From Candidatus Moranbacteria bacterium GW2011_GWC2_37_8 (lineage in GTDB: Bacteria; Patescibacteriota; Minisyncoccia; Moranbacterales; GWC2-37-73), in contig LBTS01000007.1 of NCBI GenBank assembly GCA_000992165.1, forward strand, positions 1 to 33,544: 33,544 nt of DNA, written 5' to 3'. The translations under genes were made by a program, and so were the position numbers. Positions 12,879-21,776 of this stretch are shown here, one piece after another. Within the stretch, counting starts at the first letter, position 1. Each line of letters opens with the position of its first letter. Below the pieces are notes generated by a model. It saw only the letters and a program-made list of their open reading frames with translations. It had not been told where the DNA came from and ran no database searches.

Positions 12879-12976
12879 ACACGAATCGACACGAATAGCA
12901 GCACGAATAACCTCAAATGAATACAAATAATTAGTGTCAATTAGGAATTTATTAGTGTAATTAGTGATTTATATAC
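12879..12976. repeat. Convergent short-repeat element, family C
   Basis: Left arm CACGAAT words, right arm TTAGTGT/ATTAGTGA words ending just before the rplW start. Confidence 0.75.
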
Positions 12977-12978
12977 AT

Positions 12979-13386
12979 ATGGCAGTAATAGAAGAGAAAA
13001 AAGAAGAAGTTTCAGAAGTTGTAGCTAAAGCTGCGCCCAAAAAGGCTAGTAAAAAAGCGGTTACAAAGAAGGAAACTGCAATAGAAGCTTGCGAGCATGC
13101 TGACATTGCTTACAAGGTTTTGGTAGAGCCTTGGGTGACTGAAAAAACTCATGCTGCTATGGCTGATAATAAATACACTTTCAAAGTTACTAAAGCTGCA
13201 ACAAAGATGCAGGTTAAAAGAGCTATTGAAGGGATGTACAAAGTGAAAGTTGAAAAAGTGACTGTTGTGAATGTATTGGCAAAGAAGCGTGCTTATGGAC
13301 GCCATGAAGGAAAGATTGCAGGATTCAAAAAAGCAACATTGACATTGAAAAAAGGAGATAAGATCGAGTTTTTCCAAGGAGCATAA
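12979..13386 (+). CDS. rplW: 50S ribosomal protein L23 with N-terminal extension
   Basis: PWVTEKTHAAMADNKYTFKV...VKRAIEGMYKVKVEKVTVVN. Confidence 0.93.
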   Translation: MAVIEEKKEEVSEVVAKAAPKKASKKAVTKKETAIEACEHADIAYKVLVEPWVTEKTHAAMADNKYTFKVTKAATKMQVKRAIEGMYKVKVEKVTVVNVLAKKRAYGRHEGKIAGFKKATLTLKKGDKIEFFQGA

Positions 13387-13482
13387 AAATAACTAATAAC
13401 AAATAACTAATAACTAACAACAGGCGATTGATAAATTCAAAAACGAAAGTTATAAGTTATAAGTTGTAAGTGATAAGTAAAT
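13387..13482. repeat. Convergent heptamer element, family A
   Basis: Left (TAACTAA)n; right GTTATAA GTTATAA GTTGTAA GTGATAA GTAAATT; partial reverse complements. Confidence 0.85.
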
Positions 13483-13485
13483 TCT

Positions 13486-14316
13486 ATGGCAATTAAAGTA
13501 TACAAAAAGAATACAGCTGGACGTCGAAACATGTCGATTGTTAAGCCGGATAACCTGACTGATAAAAAGCCAGAGAAATCCCTATTAGCACCGATGACCC
13601 AAAAAGGTGGACGTTCACACGGAAAGATTTCAACTCGTCACCAAGGCGGTGGACACAAGAGACGATATCGATTGGTTGATTTCAAACAACAGAAATTTGA
13701 TATCCCAGGAAAAATCATTGCTATTGAAAAAGATCCAAACCGAAGCGCTTTAATTGCTTTGATTTCATATATTGACGGGGACAAGAAATACATTTTGGCT
13801 ACTGAAGGAATGAAGGCTGATATGCAAATTATGTCAGGTGAGAATGCTCCGATCAAGAAAGGAAACCGAACAGTACTTCGAAATATTCCATCAGGAACTA
13901 TAGTTTCAAATATCGAACTTATTTCAGGAAAGGGTGGACAAATCACTCGCTCAGCCGGAAGCGGAGCAACGCTTATGGCTATCGACGGTAAAATGGCTCA
14001 ACTTAAGATGTCATCTGGTGAAATCAGATTGGTAAGCAAAGAATGCTACGCATCTATCGGACGAGTAAGTAATTTCGAACATAGTGCTGAAACTCTTGGA
14101 AAGGCTGGAAGAAATCGTTGGAAAGGAAAGAGACCGGAAGTTCGCGGTTCAGCTATGAACCCTGTAGATCATCCACATGGAGGAGGAGAAGGACGTCAAG
14201 GAATCGGTCTGAAACATCCTAAGACTCCATGGGGTAAACCTGCTCTTGGAAAGAAGACTCGAAAGAAGAATAGATATAGCGATAAATTTATTGTAAAACG
14301 AAGGATTAAGAAATAG
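13486..14316 (+). CDS. rplB: 50S ribosomal protein L2
   Basis: GRSHGKISTRHQGGGHKRRYR..., MNPVDHPHGGGEGR. Confidence 0.97.
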   Translation: MAIKVYKKNTAGRRNMSIVKPDNLTDKKPEKSLLAPMTQKGGRSHGKISTRHQGGGHKRRYRLVDFKQQKFDIPGKIIAIEKDPNRSALIALISYIDGDKKYILATEGMKADMQIMSGENAPIKKGNRTVLRNIPSGTIVSNIELISGKGGQITRSAGSGATLMAIDGKMAQLKMSSGEIRLVSKECYASIGRVSNFEHSAETLGKAGRNRWKGKRPEVRGSAMNPVDHPHGGGEGRQGIGLKHPKTPWGKPALGKKTRKKNRYSDKFIVKRRIKK

Positions 14317-14371
14317 TTAAAATGATTAATTGGTTTCGATCAATTAACCAATCAACTACTCAATTAAAATT

Positions 14372-14716
14372 ATGTCACGAAGTTTAAAAAAAGGACCATA
14401 CGTAGACCCGAGAGTAATGAAGAAAGTTTTGAATGCTAAACCTACAGATGGAACAATCAAAACTTGGTCACGTGCTTGCACGATTGCTCCTGAGATGATT
14501 GGTTTCACATTTGGAGTTCATAATGGTCGCCAACACACAGCTGTATATGTAACTGAAGAAATGGTTGGACACAGACTTGGAGAATTTGCACCTACACGTA
14601 AATTCAACCGTCATGGAGGTAAGATGCAGAAAGAAATTGAACAAGCAGCTAAGCAGAAACAACAAGACGCAGCCAAAGCCGCAAAAAGTGACGGCGCAGG
14701 AGCAAAGAAGAAATAA
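14372..14716 (+). CDS. rpsS: 30S ribosomal protein S19
   Basis: [41 protein letters not shown]. Confidence 0.97.
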
Positions 14717-14812
14717 TAATAGTAGTCCATAAAGTCCTAAAGTCTATAAAGTTAAAAGCTAAAAGCATTGACTTGAAAGACTTGAAAGACTTGAAAGACT
14801 TTTGACTAATAC
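14717..14812. repeat. Convergent short-repeat element, family B
   Basis: Left AGTCCATAAAGTCC..., GCATT centre, right (GACTTGAAA)n GACTTTTGACTAA into rplV start. Confidence 0.85.
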
Positions 14813-14814
14813 AT

Positions 14815-15387
14815 ATGAAAGTAATAGCATCACTCAAAAATTTAAGAACATCTCCTCGTAAAGTACGTCTTGTTACCAACAGTATTGTTGGAATGAACGC
14901 AAGCGCAGCTTTGGTGCAATTACAACATGTTGTAAAAAAGACTAGCGAGCCAATGGAGAAATTGCTCAACAGCGCTTTGGCTAATGCTGAAAACAACTTT
15001 GGTCTTGATAAAGACAATATGTATGTTAGCAGTGTATTAGTAGGTGAAGGTGCAAAATTGAAAAGATGGCTTCCTAGAGCTCAAGGACGAGCAACACTTT
15101 TGCTGAAAAGAACTTCACACATCAAATTGGAACTGGAAGAAAGAATCGAAGGAAAGAATAAGAAAACCAAGCAGCAATTAGATAAGGAGAAGGCAGATAG
15201 AGAAGCAGCTAGAACTAAAGCAATGAAAGAGGCTGTAGCTGAAGCATCAAAAGAAGAAGCTGAAAATGAAGATAAGGTTGCTGAAAAGGCTCCTGCTGCA
15301 AAGACTACTAAAAAAAGAGAAACTGCAGCAAAAACAGGACAGGACAATGGTTTCTTGAAGAAGGTTTTTCAAAGGAAATCAGCATAG
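14815..15387 (+). CDS. rplV: 50S ribosomal protein L22 with charged C-terminal extension
   Basis: RTSPRKVRLV, PRAQGRATLLLKRTSHI; then Lys/Glu/Ala-rich tail ending NGFLKKVFQRKSA. Confidence 0.94.
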   Translation: MKVIASLKNLRTSPRKVRLVTNSIVGMNASAALVQLQHVVKKTSEPMEKLLNSALANAENNFGLDKDNMYVSSVLVGEGAKLKRWLPRAQGRATLLLKRTSHIKLELEERIEGKNKKTKQQLDKEKADREAARTKAMKEAVAEASKEEAENEDKVAEKAPAAKTTKKRETAAKTGQDNGFLKKVFQRKSA

Positions 15388-15470
15388 TTAACTAACAACA
15401 CATAACTAATAACTTATAACAAAAAACGCATTAGTTGTGAGTTATAAGTAATAAGTGATAAGTAAATTTT
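15388..15470. repeat. Convergent heptamer element, family A
   Basis: TAACTAA CAACACA TAACTAA TAACTTA / GTTGTGA GTTATAA GTAATAA GTGATAA. Confidence 0.85.
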
Positions 15471-15471
15471 T

Positions 15472-16122
15472 ATGGGACATAAAGTCAATCCAACAGGGCT
15501 GCGCTTAGGAATCACTACCACATGGAAATCAAGGTGGTTTGCTGGCAAAGATTACACTAAAAAACTCAAAGAAGATGTTCAGGTTCGAGAGTTTGTTATG
15601 AAAAAGTGGAAATCTGCTGCAATCGCTGATGTGGAAATTGAAAGAAGCTCAAATATATTGAAATTGATTATAAAGACATCTCGTCCTGGAGTATTAATCG
15701 GAAGAGGTGGTACTGGAATCGGCGACATGAGTGCTGCAATCAAGAAGCAATTTTTCGCAGGAAAAAAGATAGATCTTAAAATTGAAGCTCAGGAAGTTAG
15801 ACAATTTGAAGAGAATGCTTCATTAGTAGCTCAGAATGTTGCTGAACAACTTGAAAAACGCGTTCCATTCCGAAGAATTTTGAAATCAATGTTGGATCAA
15901 GTTGAAAAGAATAAAAATATTAAGGGAGTTAAGATTGAAGTGTCTGGTCGTTTGGGTGGAGCTGAAATGTCACGAAGAGAGTGGCTTTCAAGAGGAACAG
16001 TTCCTCTTCACACCTTGAGAGCTGATATTGATTTCGCAAAAGCAACCGCATTCACAACTTATGGAGCTATTGGTGTTAAGACCTGGCTATATAAGGGAGA
16101 AGTATTTAATAAAGAAGATTAA
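15472..16122 (+). CDS. rpsC: 30S ribosomal protein S3
   Basis: MGHKVNPTGLRLGI, PGVLIGRGGTGI, GRLGGAEMSRREWLSRGTVPLHTLRADIDF. Confidence 0.97.
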   Translation: MGHKVNPTGLRLGITTTWKSRWFAGKDYTKKLKEDVQVREFVMKKWKSAAIADVEIERSSNILKLIIKTSRPGVLIGRGGTGIGDMSAAIKKQFFAGKKIDLKIEAQEVRQFEENASLVAQNVAEQLEKRVPFRRILKSMLDQVEKNKNIKGVKIEVSGRLGGAEMSRREWLSRGTVPLHTLRADIDFAKATAFTTYGAIGVKTWLYKGEVFNKED

Positions 16123-16234
16123 GAATCGTTTATTGTCTAGCGTAGTGAGTGAAATGAGAGAGTACTTTCATTTCCGAGCGAGCGACGACAACAAGTATTT
16201 ATATTTACATTTTGATTAGTCTACGCATATGTTG

Positions 16235-16639
16235 ATGCCCAAAAAAGTTAAACACAGAAAAATACACCGAGGCGGAGAAATCCGAGGAGTTGCAACTAAA
16301 GGCAATACGGTAAGTTTCGGAAGTTTTGGCCTAAAGGCAACAACTTCAGGACTTATCTCTGCTCGTCAGATTGAAGCTGCTCGTAGAGCAATGACCCGTT
16401 ACGTAAAAAGAGGTGGAAAGATTTGGATTAGAATTTTCCCAGATAAGCCAATGACTAAAAAGGGAGATGAAACTCCCATGGGTAAGGGAAAAGGTAGTGT
16501 TGATCATTTCGTAGCAAAGACCAAGCAAGGAAGAGTTTTGTTTGAGATGGATGGTATAGCGCAGTCAGTTGCGAAAGAAGCTATGCGACTTGCCTCACAC
16601 AAGCTCAATGTAAAAACGAAATTTGTAGTTAAGGAATAA
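16235..16639 (+). CDS. rplP: 50S ribosomal protein L16
   Basis: [39 protein letters not shown]; start at MPKKVKHRK or MLMPKK (16229). Confidence 0.95.
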
Positions 16640-16657
16640 GAATAGCATATCAATTAT

Positions 16658-16852
16658 ATGAAAATTCAGGAAATTAGAGATTTGAATATTGAGCAGTTAA
16701 AGAAACTCATTGATGAGAAAAGAACTCAGGCAGTGAAGCTCAGATTTGATATCGCTGTACGTCAGCTAAAAAATCATAGACAGTATCGAGCAATTAAGAC
16801 TGATATTGCGAGAATACTTACGATTTTGAAGCAGCGAGCAGACCAAGAATAA
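16658..16852 (+). CDS. rpmC: 50S ribosomal protein L29
   Basis: Short helical L29-like protein in its expected place between L16 and S17. Confidence 0.88.
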   Translation: MKIQEIRDLNIEQLKKLIDEKRTQAVKLRFDIAVRQLKNHRQYRAIKTDIARILTILKQRADQE

Positions 16853-16940
16853 AGAACTAATAACTCGCAACTAATAACAGATAACAAGAACAACTAAATA
16901 CAATTTGTTATAAGTAATAAGTTGTTAGTAATAAGTTAAA
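16853..16940. repeat. Convergent heptamer element, family A, near-copy of 18068..18155
   Basis: Shares CTAATAACAGAtAACAAGAACAACTaAAT..TTTGTTATAAGTAATAAGTTGTTAGTaATAAGTTAAA with the element before rplE. Confidence 0.9.
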
Positions 16941-16946
16941 ATATAT

Positions 16947-17189
16947 ATGACGAACACGACTAAAAAATTATCAAAGAAAAAGGGAGTAGTTGTTAGTGAC
17001 GCAATGAATAAGACTATTGTGGTTGCAGTTCAAACACTTAAAACTCATCCTAAATATTTGAAGAAATATCGTTCAACTAAGAATTATAAGGTTCACGATG
17101 AAGAGAACAAATTCAAAAAAGGTGAAACAGTTGAATTCGTTCAGTGCAAACCTCTAAGTAAAGATAAGAGTCACACAGTAATCGCGTAA
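16947..17189 (+). CDS. rpsQ: 30S ribosomal protein S17
   Basis: GVVVSDAMNKTIVVAVQTLKTHPKYLKKYRSTKNYKVHDE. Confidence 0.94.
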   Translation: MTNTTKKLSKKKGVVVSDAMNKTIVVAVQTLKTHPKYLKKYRSTKNYKVHDEENKFKKGETVEFVQCKPLSKDKSHTVIA

Positions 17190-17194
17190 ATAAT

Positions 17195-17285
17195 TGCAGT
17201 CCATAAAGCTGAAAGTCGCAAAGTCTATAAAGCAGAGATGCATTGACTTGAAAGACTTGAAGGACTTGATAGACTTTTGACTAAA
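17195..17285. repeat. Convergent short-repeat element, family B
   Basis: GCAGTCCATAAAG...GATGCATTGACTTGAAAGACTTGAAGGACTTGATAGACTTTTGACTAAAATATATG. Confidence 0.87.
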
Positions 17286-17289
17286 ATAT

Positions 17290-17655
17290 ATGATTCAGGC
17301 AGAAACAAAATTGAAGGCAGCTGATAATTCAGGCGCAAAAGTCATTGAGTGCTTCAAGGTGCTTGGTGGTTCACGCAGACGATATGCTTCTGTTGGAGAT
17401 ATCATTGTTTGCTCTGTGAAATCCGCTGAACCACGAGGTTTGGTAAAAAAAGGAGATAAGGTTCGTGCAGTGGTTGTTCGCACAAAGAAAGCTATTCGCC
17501 GCAAAGATGGTTCATATATCCGATTTGATGAAAATGCAGCTGTTATCGTGAATGAAAAAGAACCAAAGGGAACTCGTATATTTGGACCAATCGCTAGAGA
17601 GCTCCGAGAAAAAGGATTCTCAAAGATTGTTTCACTTGCTCCTGAGGTTTTGTAA
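17290..17655 (+). CDS. rplN: 50S ribosomal protein L14
   Basis: [40 protein letters not shown]. Confidence 0.97.
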
Positions 17656-17755
17656 GCACTAATCTGCACGAATCAATGCCACTAATAACACGAATGAGAT
17701 TCAAATTATTAGTGAAAATTAGTGAATTTAATTAGTGAAAATTAGTGATTTATAA
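17656..17755. repeat. Convergent short-repeat element, family C
   Basis: CACTAAT/CACGAAT left words, (AATTAGTGAA)n right words. Confidence 0.85.
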
Positions 17756-17761
17756 AAATAT

Positions 17762-18067
17762 ATGAGAATTAAAAAAGGCGATCTCGTTAAAAAAATTGCA
17801 GGAAAGGATAAGGGTAAGCAAGGGAAAGTTCTTAGAACTGTTCCTAGCGAGGGAAAAATCGTTGTAGAAAAATTGAATATTGTTAAGAAACATCAGAAAG
17901 CTCGCCGAGAAGGTGAACGTGGACAACGAGTAGAAATCGCAGCTCCATTTGATGCATCGAATGCAATGATTGTTTGTCCAGCATGTGGAGCGGCAACTAG
18001 AGTGTCCTACGCATTCGTGGGAGATAAAAAGGTTCGCGTATGTAAGAAATGTAGTAAGGAACTCTAA
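17762..18067 (+). CDS. rplX: 50S ribosomal protein L24
   Basis: IKKGDLVKKIAGKDKGKQGKVLRTVPSEGKIVVEKLNIVKKHQK; C-terminal CPAC..CKKC. Confidence 0.94.
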   Translation: MRIKKGDLVKKIAGKDKGKQGKVLRTVPSEGKIVVEKLNIVKKHQKARREGERGQRVEIAAPFDASNAMIVCPACGAATRVSYAFVGDKKVRVCKKCSKEL

Positions 18068-18155
18068 AAGGACTAATAACCCATAACTAATAACAGACAA
18101 CAAGAACAACTGAATGCATTTTGTTATAAGTAATAAGTTGTTAGTGATAAGTTAA
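18068..18155. repeat. Convergent heptamer element, family A
   Basis: Near-copy of 16853..16940; loop contains TGCATT. Confidence 0.9.
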
Positions 18156-18159
18156 ATAT

Positions 18160-18708
18160 ATGAAAATAACTCCAGCAAAAGAGAAATATACTAAAGTAGC
18201 GGTAGCTGAAATGCAAAAGAAATTCAGTTACAAAAGCGTTATGGCAGTGCCTCGAATTAAAAAAGTTGTCGTGAACGTGGGAATCGGAAAGATTGTCAAA
18301 GAAAACGACAAAATCGAGGAAATTGTTAGCGCCTTGACTGCTATTACTGGTCAAAAACCAGTTAAGACGAAGGCTAAGAAAGCTATTTCCGGATTCAAGA
18401 TTCGCGAAGGAATGGAAATTGGTGTAAAGGTTACCCTTAGAGGAGCAAGAATGTGGCAGTTTATTGACAGGGTGGTAAGCGCAACTCTTCCACGAACCCG
18501 AGATTTTCAAGGAATCAATAGAAAAGCAGTTGACACTACCGGTAACCTGAATATGGGTTTGAAGGAACATATGATTTTCCCAGAAATTTCACCGGAAAAA
18601 GTACGCCACACATTTGGAATGCAAATCACGGTTTCAACCAATGCGACATCGCAAGCTGAAGGTTTGGAATTATTTAAATTATTAGGATTTCCGCTAAAAA
18701 GCGAATAA
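18160..18708 (+). CDS. rplE: 50S ribosomal protein L5
   Basis: VPRIKKVVVNVGIG, KTKAKKAISGFKIREGMEIGVKVTLRG. Confidence 0.96.
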   Translation: MKITPAKEKYTKVAVAEMQKKFSYKSVMAVPRIKKVVVNVGIGKIVKENDKIEEIVSALTAITGQKPVKTKAKKAISGFKIREGMEIGVKVTLRGARMWQFIDRVVSATLPRTRDFQGINRKAVDTTGNLNMGLKEHMIFPEISPEKVRHTFGMQITVSTNATSQAEGLELFKLLGFPLKSE

Positions 18709-18729
18709 GTAATTGATACAAGAATTTAT

Positions 18730-18915
18730 ATGGCAAAAACATCTACAGAGGCTCGAGCAGAGAAGAAACCCAAGTTTTCAACCAGAATTGTACGCCGTTG
18801 CTGGCGATGTGGTCGTAAGCATGGCTACCTTCGTGCCTACGATATCTGCAGAATCTGCTTCAGAGAATTGGCAAGTAAGGGAGAAATTCCAGGAGTAACA
18901 AAGAGCAGTTGGTAA
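18730..18915 (+). CDS. rpsZ: 30S ribosomal protein S14 type Z
   Basis: [25 protein letters not shown] zinc motif. Confidence 0.95.
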
Positions 18916-18917
18916 AA

Positions 18918-19015
18918 GATATCACGAATCAACTCGAATATATTTCACTAATAAACACGAATAAGCAAGTGAGACATTGGTGCAATTAGTGAGAAATTAG
19001 TGTAAATTAGTGATT
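18918..19015. repeat. Convergent short-repeat element, family C
   Basis: CACGAATCAACTCGAAT..CACTAATAAACACGAAT / AATTAGTGAGAAATTAGTGTAAATTAGTGATTTTAT. Confidence 0.85.
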
Positions 19016-19048
19016 TTATATAATATAATTAGGATAAAGAATTAGAAT

Positions 19049-19453
19049 ATGTTAGATCCAATAGCAGACATGCTTACAAGAATTCGAAATGCGCAGATGG
19101 TAAAACACAAAGAAGTGTCCGTGCCTTTTTCGAAATTGAAACTGTCTATTGCTAAAATTTTAGAGCAACGAAATTTTATCGAGTCAGTTAAAAAGGATGA
19201 AGAAGGAACTTTTCCTGTGCTTAAGATTACTTTGAAATACGAAGTAGTTTCAAATACTGAGAAAAATCCTGCCATCAGAGAAATTAAACGAGTAAGTAGA
19301 CAAGGTCAGCGGATCTATGTGAAAAAGACTGACATCAAGCGAGTGAAAAATGGATATGGTATTTCAATTGTCTCAACTTCGAAAGGAATGATGACTGGTG
19401 ATAAAGCTCAGAAAATGGGACTTGGTGGAGAAATAATTTGTGAAGTTTGGTAA
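19049..19453 (+). CDS. rpsH: 30S ribosomal protein S8
   Basis: DPIADMLTRIRNAQ, GYGISIVSTSKGMMT, GLGGEIICEVW. Confidence 0.96.
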   Translation: MLDPIADMLTRIRNAQMVKHKEVSVPFSKLKLSIAKILEQRNFIESVKKDEEGTFPVLKITLKYEVVSNTEKNPAIREIKRVSRQGQRIYVKKTDIKRVKNGYGISIVSTSKGMMTGDKAQKMGLGGEIICEVW

Positions 19454-19459
19454 AAAAAT

Positions 19460-19548
19460 AATTGCAGTCCATAAAGCTTAAAGTCCATAAAGTCCATAAA
19501 GAATTGGCTTGATTGACTTGAAGGACTTGAAAGACTTTTGACTAAAAT
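19460..19548. repeat. Convergent short-repeat element, family B
   Basis: GCAGTCCATAAAGC...GACTTGAAGGACTTGAAAGACTTTTGACTAAAATATTATG. Confidence 0.87.
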
Positions 19549-19551
19549 ATT

Positions 19552-20088
19552 ATGAGTAGAATCGGAAAAAAACCAGTTGTAATACCTCAAGGAGTTAGCG
19601 TAACTTGCGAGAAGAATCTAGTTACAGTTAAAGGTCCAAAAGGAACACTTACTTTTCAGCATCACATGGATGTTTCATTGAAATTTGGTGAAAATGAATT
19701 TACAGTTGAAAAAGAAAGCAAGGCAAAGAATGTTCCAGCTATCTGGGGGACTACGGCTCGCGTGATTGAAAACATGATCGAAGGAACAGTTAATGGATTC
19801 AAAAAACAATTGGAGCTTAACGGTGTTGGTTTTCGTATGAATATTGCTGGGAAAACAATCACATTAGCACTAGGTTTTTCTCATCCTGTAATTGTTGAAG
19901 TTCCTGCAGAATTAGAAGTTGTGATTGAAGGAAACACTATGACAGTATCTGGAATTGACAAGCATTTAGTTGGTCAATTTTCAGCTAATATTAGAGCATT
20001 AAAACCTGTTGAACCATATAAGGGCAAAGGATTTAAATATGTCGGAGAACATGTTCGCCGAAAAGAAGGTAAGAAATCAAGCAAATAA
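19552..20088 (+). CDS. rplF: 50S ribosomal protein L6
   Basis: MSRIGKKPVVIPQGV, VKGPKGTL, EPYKGKGFKYVGEHVRRKEGKK. Confidence 0.96.
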   Translation: MSRIGKKPVVIPQGVSVTCEKNLVTVKGPKGTLTFQHHMDVSLKFGENEFTVEKESKAKNVPAIWGTTARVIENMIEGTVNGFKKQLELNGVGFRMNIAGKTITLALGFSHPVIVEVPAELEVVIEGNTMTVSGIDKHLVGQFSANIRALKPVEPYKGKGFKYVGEHVRRKEGKKSSK

Positions 20089-20094
20089 ATAATA

Positions 20095-20152
20095 GCAGTC
20101 CATAAAGTCCAATGACTTGAAGACTTGAGGGACTTGAAAGACTTTTGACTAA
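20095..20152. repeat. Short family B element
   Basis: GCAGTCCATAAAGTCCAATGACTTGAAGACTTGAGGGACTTGAAAGACTTTTGACTAAAATATTATG. Confidence 0.85.
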
Positions 20153-20158
20153 AATATT

Positions 20159-20509
20159 ATGAACAAATCAAGTAACAATAGCGGTCGAATCCAGCGTAAG
20201 CGCCGAGTTCGAGCAAAAATTTCAGGATCTGCTGAACGTCCAAGACTTGCTGTGTATAAAAGCCTAAAAAGCATTTATGCTCAAGTGATTGACGATGTAG
20301 CTGGAAAAACTCTAGCTAGCGCAAAGCTAACTGAACTTAAAACTGCTAAGAATACTATTGAAGGAGCTAAAGAGGTTGGAAAGTTGGTTGCAAAGAAATG
20401 CGCAGCACTCAAGATTTCTTCTGTTACTTATGACCGAGCAGGTTACCGATATCATGGAAAAGTAAAAGCTTTAGCAGAAGGTGCTCGCGAAGGTGGACTA
20501 CTATTTTAA
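20159..20509 (+). CDS. rplR: 50S ribosomal protein L18
   Basis: RPRLAVYKSLKSIYAQVIDD, YDRAGYRYHGKVKALAEGAREGGL. Confidence 0.95.
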   Translation: MNKSSNNSGRIQRKRRVRAKISGSAERPRLAVYKSLKSIYAQVIDDVAGKTLASAKLTELKTAKNTIEGAKEVGKLVAKKCAALKISSVTYDRAGYRYHGKVKALAEGAREGGLLF

Positions 20510-20596
20510 AACTAACTAATAACTAATAACCAACAACAAACAACTTAAAAAACTCAAGCATGATGTTATCAGTTATAAGTTATGAGTTATAAGTTA
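20510..20596. repeat. Convergent heptamer element, family A
   Basis: CTAATAACTAATAACCAACAAC / GTTATCAGTTATAAGTTATGAGTTATAAGTTAAA. Confidence 0.85.
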
Positions 20597-20604
20597 AATA
20601 TATT

Positions 20605-21135
20605 ATGAATAAGAGACCAGGCAAAAAAGGAGCACGCAGAGAAAAACCAGAATTCGAACAGAAGCTTTTGGATTTGGCTCGCGTTACTCGTGTAGTAAAA
20701 GGTGGACGAAGATTTCGTTTCCGCGCAACATTAGTAATTGGTGATCGCAAAGGAAAAGTTGGCGTTGGTGTAGCTAAAGGATCAGACGTTTCTGACGCCA
20801 TCCAAAAAGCTTACAATGATGCAAAGAAGTGCATGATAACCGTCAAATTGTCTGGAAACACTATTCCTCATGATATCAGTATGAAACTTGGAAGCGCAAA
20901 GGTACTTTTGAAACCTGCTTCACAAGGACGCGGAGTTATCGCTGGTGGAGCTGTCCGAGCTGTGGTTGATTTGGCTGGAATTCGCGATATCGTTTCAAAA
21001 TCTTTGGGAACTTCAAATAAATTGAATGTTGCCAGAGTTACAATCGAAGCACTGAAAGCACTGAAAGCACCACGCATTAAAGCATTTGCAGAAGCTGGTA
21101 CTGTTGAAGTAAAAGAGGTTGTTATAGAAAAATAA
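20605..21135 (+). CDS. rpsE: 30S ribosomal protein S5
   Basis: RVTRVVKGGRRFRFRATLVIGDRKGKVGVGVAKG. Confidence 0.96.
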   Translation: MNKRPGKKGARREKPEFEQKLLDLARVTRVVKGGRRFRFRATLVIGDRKGKVGVGVAKGSDVSDAIQKAYNDAKKCMITVKLSGNTIPHDISMKLGSAKVLLKPASQGRGVIAGGAVRAVVDLAGIRDIVSKSLGTSNKLNVARVTIEALKALKAPRIKAFAEAGTVEVKEVVIEK

Positions 21136-21236
21136 TTTTTTGTTAATTATAATTAACATTTCTGAAAAATTTACTCGTATACGATTATTATTTGTATATT
21201 TGTATATTTGTAGAAGATTTGTAATTTTGTAGGGTT

Positions 21237-21674
21237 ATGCAAATTCATCAACTTACAGTAAAAAAACGCAAGGATAAAAAAACCGTTGGTCGCGGTGGAA
21301 AGCGTGGAACATATTCCGGAAAAGGAAACAAGGGTCAGAAAGCTCGATCTGGAGCATCTATTGACCCATTGTTTGAAGGAGGACGTTCTTCTCTTGTAGA
21401 ACGTTTGAAAAAGGTTCGAGGATTTAAATCTTTGAATGCTAAGAAAACGGTTGTTAAGCTTGAAGCTTTGGAGAAGACTTTCAAAGATGGAGACATTATC
21501 TCAATGGAAACATTGCTTAGCTCAAAACTTATTGACAAGGCTGATGCAAAAGATGGTGTAAAAATTCTTACAACTGGAGCTATTACAAAAAAACTTACAA
21601 TCTCAGCTGAGATTCTTCTTTCAGGAACTGCAAAAGATGCTATAATCAAAGCAGGAGGAACAATTCTAGAATAG
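21237..21674 (+). CDS. rplO: 50S ribosomal protein L15
   Basis: GRGGKRGTYSGKGNKGQKARSG. Confidence 0.94.
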   Translation: MQIHQLTVKKRKDKKTVGRGGKRGTYSGKGNKGQKARSGASIDPLFEGGRSSLVERLKKVRGFKSLNAKKTVVKLEALEKTFKDGDIISMETLLSSKLIDKADAKDGVKILTTGAITKKLTISAEILLSGTAKDAIIKAGGTILE

Positions 21675-21771
21675 CTTTTTAGGCATTAGCTTATTAGCTT
21701 TTTAGGAAATTAAGTAACTAATGCAATTTTTATAGCTGAGAAGCTGAAAAGCTAAGAAGCTAAGAAGCTGT
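21672..21771. repeat. Convergent short-repeat element, family E, overlapping the rplO stop
   Basis: TAGCTTTTTAGGCATTAGCTTATTAGCTTTTTAGG / AGCTGAGAAGCTGAAAAGCTAAGAAGCTAAGAAGCTG. Confidence 0.88.
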
Positions 21772-21776
21772 TCAAT

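Follow-up and report, generated by a model that had tools for sequence, protein, structure and literature searches.

In Candidatus Moranbacteria bacterium GW2011_GWC2_37_8, which belongs to a group of tiny, uncultured bacteria, most gaps between the genes of the S10/spc ribosomal protein cluster are occupied by hairpin cassettes, i.e., two-armed arrays of short degenerate repeats that fill the whole spacer, point the same way with respect to transcription, are copied between gaps, and are either retained almost unchanged or replaced outright between species. These properties are shown directly by the comparisons described below, and they require no RAYT, the tyrosine transposase associated with repetitive extragenic palindromic (REP) sequences. 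To the fuller proposal, in which such oriented intercistronic cassettes, copied between gaps and swapped whole, would also act on the mRNA as spacer-folding couplers or as stabilisers, we would give about an even chance. The window, namely the whole stretch of 33,544 nucleotides (nt) that was analysed, is contig C7 (LBTS01000007.1) of a genome of 826 kb in 48 contigs that is about 80% complete, and its S3 protein shares 96-97% identity with those of metagenome-assembled genomes (MAGs) of Candidatus Moranbacteria or Moraniibacteriota, which places it in the Patescibacteria. The gaps considered here, from rplD to secY (12879-21776), belong to a canonical S10/spc cluster with every gene on the + strand.

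Arrays of 7-12 nt units, one on the left and one on the right and with periods of 7, 8, 9 and 10 detected, are present in 13 of the 18 gaps (Table 1), which bears out the sequence-only reading that had reported such arrays in most ribosomal gaps; S5-L15 carries a partial one. Family A is found in five gaps, family B in four and family C in three, so that the reported reuse of families in non-adjacent gaps also stands, family E being found in a single gap, and the four families, despite their differing sequences, do share one two-arm layout. Each gap was compared with 60 dinucleotide shuffles, and 224 coding segments of 100 nt served as control. The period score of the cluster gaps has a median z of 4.9 and exceeds 3 in 69% of them versus 3% of the coding segments, placing the arrays beyond what AT-rich composition gives by chance. 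The fold score has a median z of -2.3 and lies below -2 in 62% of the gaps versus 4% of the coding segments, but this excess of folding is not uniform, as L6-L18, S3-L16, L2-S19 and S5-L15 fall short of -2 and L4-L23 folds no better than its shuffles.

With regard to stem geometry, a strict score counting Watson-Crick pairs only, with the 95th percentile of the dinucleotide shuffles as threshold, is exceeded by 80% of the long gaps of the window and by 56% of 182 long S10/spc gaps in relatives. The arms had been described as roughly reverse-complementary; they do pair, but they are not simple reverse complements, each family having recurrent mismatches (CGAAT versus ATTAG in C, TAACTAA versus TTATAAG in A), which show no periodicity along the stem by autocorrelation. 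In the gaps above threshold, the base of the stem lies at a median of 4 nt past the stop codon and 6 nt ahead of the start codon, and the stem spans 87% of the gap versus 67% in the best-scoring shuffles. S10/spc gap lengths vary widely within the family, most often falling at 90-110 nt but frequently at 20-60 nt, whereas the median in other Patescibacteria and outgroups is 14 nt. Compensatory changes across related genomes were found between subfamilies D and K, where 6 of 11 stem pairs are altered on both sides with pairing kept and 95.5% of the cells pair, a value that drops to 14-35% in slid alignments, although this D/K change may represent one inherited event; in family C, covariation was sought and none was found. 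Pairing of the arms is thus maintained, while a strand-specific requirement at the RNA level goes beyond these data.

How the spacers change is revealed by the closest pairs of genomes, whose S10 coding DNA is about 96-97% identical, single swap events lying below this resolution. Between the sister species represented by L041 and L042, which share 96.7% identity in coding DNA and 91% at four-fold sites, 10 of 15 gaps are entirely different, each swap being bounded by the stop codon at one end and by the ATG or the conserved rpsH leader at the other; two of the ten swapped gaps adjoin an alternative gene end (S3, S5). In S19-L22, for instance, 148 nt of one family in L041 correspond to 84 nt of another in L042, and the flanks are identical over 150 nt on each side, which rules out homologous import from a diverged donor; exchange with close strains could still be the source of this swap. 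Several gaps are swapped likewise between L032 and L034 (96.3%). Among 72 comparable gaps in sampled stretches of these two genomes, where genes outside S10/spc were called with a simple purpose-written caller, 42 are different, 8 intermediate and 21 the same, some of these reflecting other repeats or differences in gene calls.

Retained gaps, on the other hand, hardly change: two sister-species comparisons gave 1/336 and 1/439 substitutions versus 33/281 (12%) and 47/671 (7%) at flanking four-fold sites (Fisher p 4e-11 and 8e-10), and composition fails to explain this, because a 7% difference is seen even when the four-fold sites are restricted to A/T. One cassette of a more distant pair shows no change in 92 nt, at a local four-fold identity of 0.54. 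Of 39 filled gaps for which relatives have a conserved short spacer in common, 26 are without any trace of it, so a new cassette takes the place of the spacer instead of being added; the traces that do remain are mostly on the start-codon side. Spacer evolution is all-or-none, a spacer being nearly unchanged when kept and otherwise swapped from stop to start for another family. Furthermore, of 160 elements, 36 match a paralogue located in a different gap of their own genome at 85% identity or more, and 13 do so at 95% or more, with identity that stops at or near the stop codon and the ATG; these near-identical copies confirm the amplification that had been suspected from the repeats.

The orientation of the elements relative to genes is the same in 677 pairs of non-orthologous S10/spc elements and opposite in 7, pairs that are not independent of one another; three of the seven involve the non-array palindrome of S3-L16 in the window, three a single copy in L035, and one concerns two family E elements. 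For pairs outside the cluster, same and opposite stand at 56:31, and agreement in genome-wide pairs is about 67%, both for flanking genes on one genomic strand and for those on opposite strands. Because the bias is equal for genes on either strand, orientation tracks transcription, and replication strand was rejected as its cause. Stronger than the S10 figure is the result for family D copies outside S10, which lie between co-directional genes in several genomes and on both contig strands and show a ratio of 17:1.

Arrays of the same kind, built from other words, were found in gaps elsewhere in the 331 kb of stretches on which the own-genome statistics are based, and the feature extends past the ribosomal operon. 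Family D is spread across several genomes of genera g5 and g8; it was absent from 287 of 287 further Patescibacteria genomes, only two of which belong to the same family, and a wide distribution in the phylum was therefore rejected. Within that family, genera g1, g5 and g8 are rich in arrays, and g3 and g4 are poor in them. Transport by phages was also rejected: the D word is present in two viral contigs, both of them simple repeats, and B gives none. Of note, one-armed tandem D words (TTCCATG-type) occur inside predicted genes of five Moranbacteria genomes, at L164:5492, L167:1228 and 1424, L168:749, L169:1203 and L171:1237, with further ones at L174:1286, L176:1198, L178:1207, L181:1268 and L183:1162; the L181 copy has the appearance of an insertion into a MiaA-like protein. 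These in-gene copies point to a spread of the units as sequence within coding DNA too, besides forming hairpins.

We can propose the following scheme for what we call a stop-to-start hairpin cassette, of about 70-110 nt with two imperfectly pairing arms of 3-5 degenerate 7-12 nt units. The lineage holds a repertoire of cassette families that are copied between gaps; each copy overwrites a whole non-functional spacer from stop to start, in constant orientation to transcription, and hardly changes once placed. The copying itself would be a local, conversion-like or template-switch process and not the work of a RAYT-type transposase. On the polycistronic mRNA, the hairpin would fold the spacer away and bring the terminating ribosome near the AU-rich start codon, allowing translational coupling or reinitiation, and it may shield cistron ends from RNases. 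Shine-Dalgarno motifs are not enriched ahead of S10/spc genes (10% versus 10% in a control window) and barely or not at all in the own-genome sample (12% versus 11%) or in G004 (9% versus 6%), with some enrichment in G011 (17% versus 8%); in place of such a motif, A peaks at position -6 of the start-codon context and T stands at -1. Because Shine-Dalgarno signals are lacking and the stem base sits at the stop and start codons, spacer folding is the simplest interpretation; it also fits the replaceability of a cassette by any other of the same design. More tentatively, an undescribed DNA copying process might overwrite whole spacers from a genomic hairpin repertoire, with stop and start codons as boundaries, and thereby make the spacers evolve in their all-or-none way, the cassettes possibly being a general solution for long operons devoid of Shine-Dalgarno signals.

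Several observations weigh against spacer folding on the mRNA. Minimum free energies (MFE) of the sense and antisense strands are equal, and sense-strand RNA stability was rejected as the selected property on that ground. Of the selection on structure and position that the sequence-only reading had put forward, position is upheld by the stem base at stop and start codons and by the fixed orientation, but RNA structure only in part, the D/K compensation standing against the null result in family C and the equal MFE of the two strands. The full hairpin is dispensable, because the right arm alone is retained in some short gaps, e.g., L22-S3. In neighbouring genera (L038, L045), gaps of mostly 20-40 nt suffice. 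The S10 orientation figure alone is no proof of selection, because copying within the operon would itself keep the orientation constant. The two genomes that have the exact B right-arm motif, the own genome and G015, have it only within the S10/spc operon, and the in-gene one-armed D words point to a general mutational spread. Finally, the scarcity of point changes in kept copies is harder to fit, and suggests either that most positions matter or that copying refreshes the cassettes.

The main competing explanation is that of selfish non-autonomous repeats, akin to REPINs (hairpin-forming REP doublets) or to miniature inverted-repeat transposable elements (MITEs), which would be spread by a transposase and survive in gaps as in-gene insertions are purged, without any host function. 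Such repeats would account for the many near-identical copies per genome, the quick gain and loss between sister species, the one-armed copies inside genes, and the classical palindromic repeats that co-occur in the same genomes. Nevertheless, the cassettes substitute for the spacer with no obvious target duplication, their orientation is fixed, and kept copies evolve far under the synonymous rate, so that we consider this explanation rather unlikely. As to the transposase, no Y1/RAYT match was obtained in five g5 genomes (G009, G011, G013, G015, G017), most of them with filled gaps, the array-rich G011, G013, G015 and G017 being 90-96% complete, and the Y1/RAYT gene of the own genome has palindromes of another kind, and not arrays, on its flanks; a RAYT/REPIN origin was rejected on both counts.

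Still less probable, in our opinion, is that the units are single-stranded sites for a putative Csp-, S1- or Csr-like RNA-binding protein controlling translation of the next gene, with the second arm masking or presenting them. Protein binding has been proposed for the TAACTGA arrays located near start codons in Beggiatoaceae (PMC4679880), right-arm-only relics persist beside the start codon, and the conserved leader of rpsH is similar to a right arm. However, at least four unrelated unit families share this position in one operon, so that any sequence-specific binder would need to tolerate quite dissimilar words. Intrinsic terminators or attenuators grading expression along the operon are very improbable: the hairpins do come after stop codons, and convergent-gene gaps of the same genome fold strongly in a terminator-like manner, but no terminator-like site was found on the coding (+) strand of the gaps, the stems are AU-rich and mismatched instead of G+C-rich, ATG follows in place of a U tract, and if nearly all gaps held a strong terminator, the distal ribosomal proteins would no longer be expressed. 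Chance and slippage in AT-rich DNA, or faulty assembly, can be dismissed as a general explanation, even though the gaps are AT-rich, the units degenerate and nearly all the genomes short-read MAGs in which repeats of ~100 nt can be mis-resolved, given that shuffles and coding controls are clearly exceeded, kept cassettes are identical across species, the same families recur in genomes assembled independently by different projects, and the junctions with unique flanks likewise argue against an artefact.

Table 1. Intergenic features of the S10/spc cluster between rplD and secY (window coordinates; periodicity and folding as z-scores)
Feature	Position	Strand	Gap length (nt)	Period z	Fold z	Content
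L4-L23 gap	12879..12978	+	100		0.0 (non-significant)	Family C (CACGAAT / ATTAGTG)
L23-L2 gap	13387..13485	+	99	9.1	-3.0	Family A (TAACTAA / AAGTTAT)
L2-S19 gap	14317..14371	+	55		-1.5	Short non-array palindrome, kept in L036
S19-L22 gap	14717..14814	+	98	13.2	-4.8	Family B (AGTCCATAA / GACTTGAAA)
L22-S3 gap	15388..15471	+	84	6.0	-2.5	Family A
S3-L16 gap	16123..16228	+	106		does not reach -2	Non-array palindromic element (CGCTCGCTCGGAAATG type); opposite orientation in L032, L036, L037
L16-L29 gap	16640..16657	+	18			Empty
L29-S17 gap	16853..16946	+	94			Family A; 90% identity to L24-L5 element
S17-L14 gap	17190..17289	+	100	7.1	-2.0	Family B
L14-L24 gap	17656..17761	+	106		-3.8	Family C
L24-L5 gap	18068..18159	+	92		-2.5	Family A
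L5-S14 gap	18709..18729	+	21			Empty; same in L033, L034, L037; filled in L032, L035, L036
S14-S8 gap	18916..19021	+	133 (with rpsH leader)			Family C in place of the 5' part of the spacer
rpsH leader	19022..19048	+				Conserved (ATAATTAGGATAAAGAATTAGAAT); stays when the upstream part is swapped
S8-L6 gap	19454..19551	+	98		-4.1	Family B
L6-L18 gap	20089..20158	+	70	3.9	-1.6	Shortened family B
L18-S5 gap	20510..20604	+	95	9.5	-2.1	Family A
S5-L15 gap	21136..21236	+	101	6.7	-1.9	Partial array (TATTTGTA) and TTAATTATAATTAA palindrome
L15-SecY gap	21675..21776	+	102	8.4	-2.6	Family E (TTAGCTTC / AAGCTAAG)

Other elements were noticed beside the arrays. The rpsH leader, which resembles a family C right arm, is preserved across most of the family's genomes whereas all the sequence upstream of it is exchanged; it may function as a site of autoregulation or of initiation. 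The S3-L16 gap, like gaps in L032, L036 and L037, contains a second type of palindrome (CGCTCGCTCGGAAATGAAA...TTTCATTTC...CGCT) which, in contrast to the arrays, is found both ways round with respect to genes. In the own genome, a short Y1/RAYT-like transposase gene (L093:1261-1980, contig C3) is flanked by GAGGACGGTCCTC palindromes and represents a REP-like system separate from the arrays. A MITE-like element (GGACTTACGCATTTTC...GTTACGC) and TGTCATTCCCGC/GCGGGAATGACA palindromes are present in L096-L112 and L114-L132 gaps (G004, G011), with gain or loss of sites between these sister species. No Rfam 15 family scored above its gathering threshold in the window.

Among known repeats, REP and REPIN sequences with their RAYT (PMC3116915, PMC3733652) are likewise short, intergenic, palindromic, conserved in sequence and present in many copies, but the arms of the Moranbacteria cassettes are tandem arrays, in which no GTAG/CGTC-tagged REP core was noticed. 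MITEs are similarly small, dispersed and palindromic, whereas the cassettes replace the spacer in a fixed orientation with arms made of repeats; no target-site duplication was obvious at the exact stop-to-start swaps, duplications not having been searched for systematically. The sequence-only reading knew of no named bacterial element with this layout, a claim that does not hold, as two related systems have been described, although a literature search found no report of such repeats for Patescibacteria. The TAACTGA repeats of Beggiatoaceae, Cyanobacteria and Bacteroidetes are heptamer direct repeats placed just before start codons, mostly in one orientation, rarely with a ribosome binding site, and in ribosomal protein operons as well (MacGregor 2015, PMC4679880); B. 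subtilis CspB is cited there as a binder of heptamer direct repeats. Moranbacteria share the forward orientation near the start codon and the rarity of ribosome binding sites, but not the word itself: TAACTGA is one word in one arm with no complementary second array, whereas family A pairs TAACTAA with AAGTTAT. The closest parallel is offered by the short tandemly repeated repetitive (STRR) sequences, 7-bp arrays that form intergenic hairpins in filamentous cyanobacteria, e.g., between hupS and hupL, vary between close relatives, and have been proposed to act in transcript stability or translational coupling (PMC2670836). The Moranbacteria gaps likewise contain tandem arrays of degenerate ~7-bp units, able to form hairpins between genes whose co-transcription is assumed from operon order; the likeness is one of architecture, in a different lineage, the Patescibacteria, and here several families of 7-12 nt units follow one two-arm layout, fill most S10/spc gaps from stop to start, and evolve in an all-or-none manner. 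The general architecture is thus already known, and what is new is the multi-family repertoire, the stop-to-start span, the operon-wide occupancy and the all-or-none evolution. While hairpin repeats of this kind were known from cyanobacteria, whole-cassette swapping was unexpected, and its combination with kept copies changing about 30-40 times below the local synonymous rate fits neither ordinary drift nor simple transposition. If the proposed function is true, it would explain how inner genes are initiated in the ribosomal operon of a reduced genome without Shine-Dalgarno signals; if false, the cassettes would be an unusually tidy selfish repeat. In either case, a single operon with about 180 natural variants makes the function of STRR-type hairpins, a long-standing question, open to testing.

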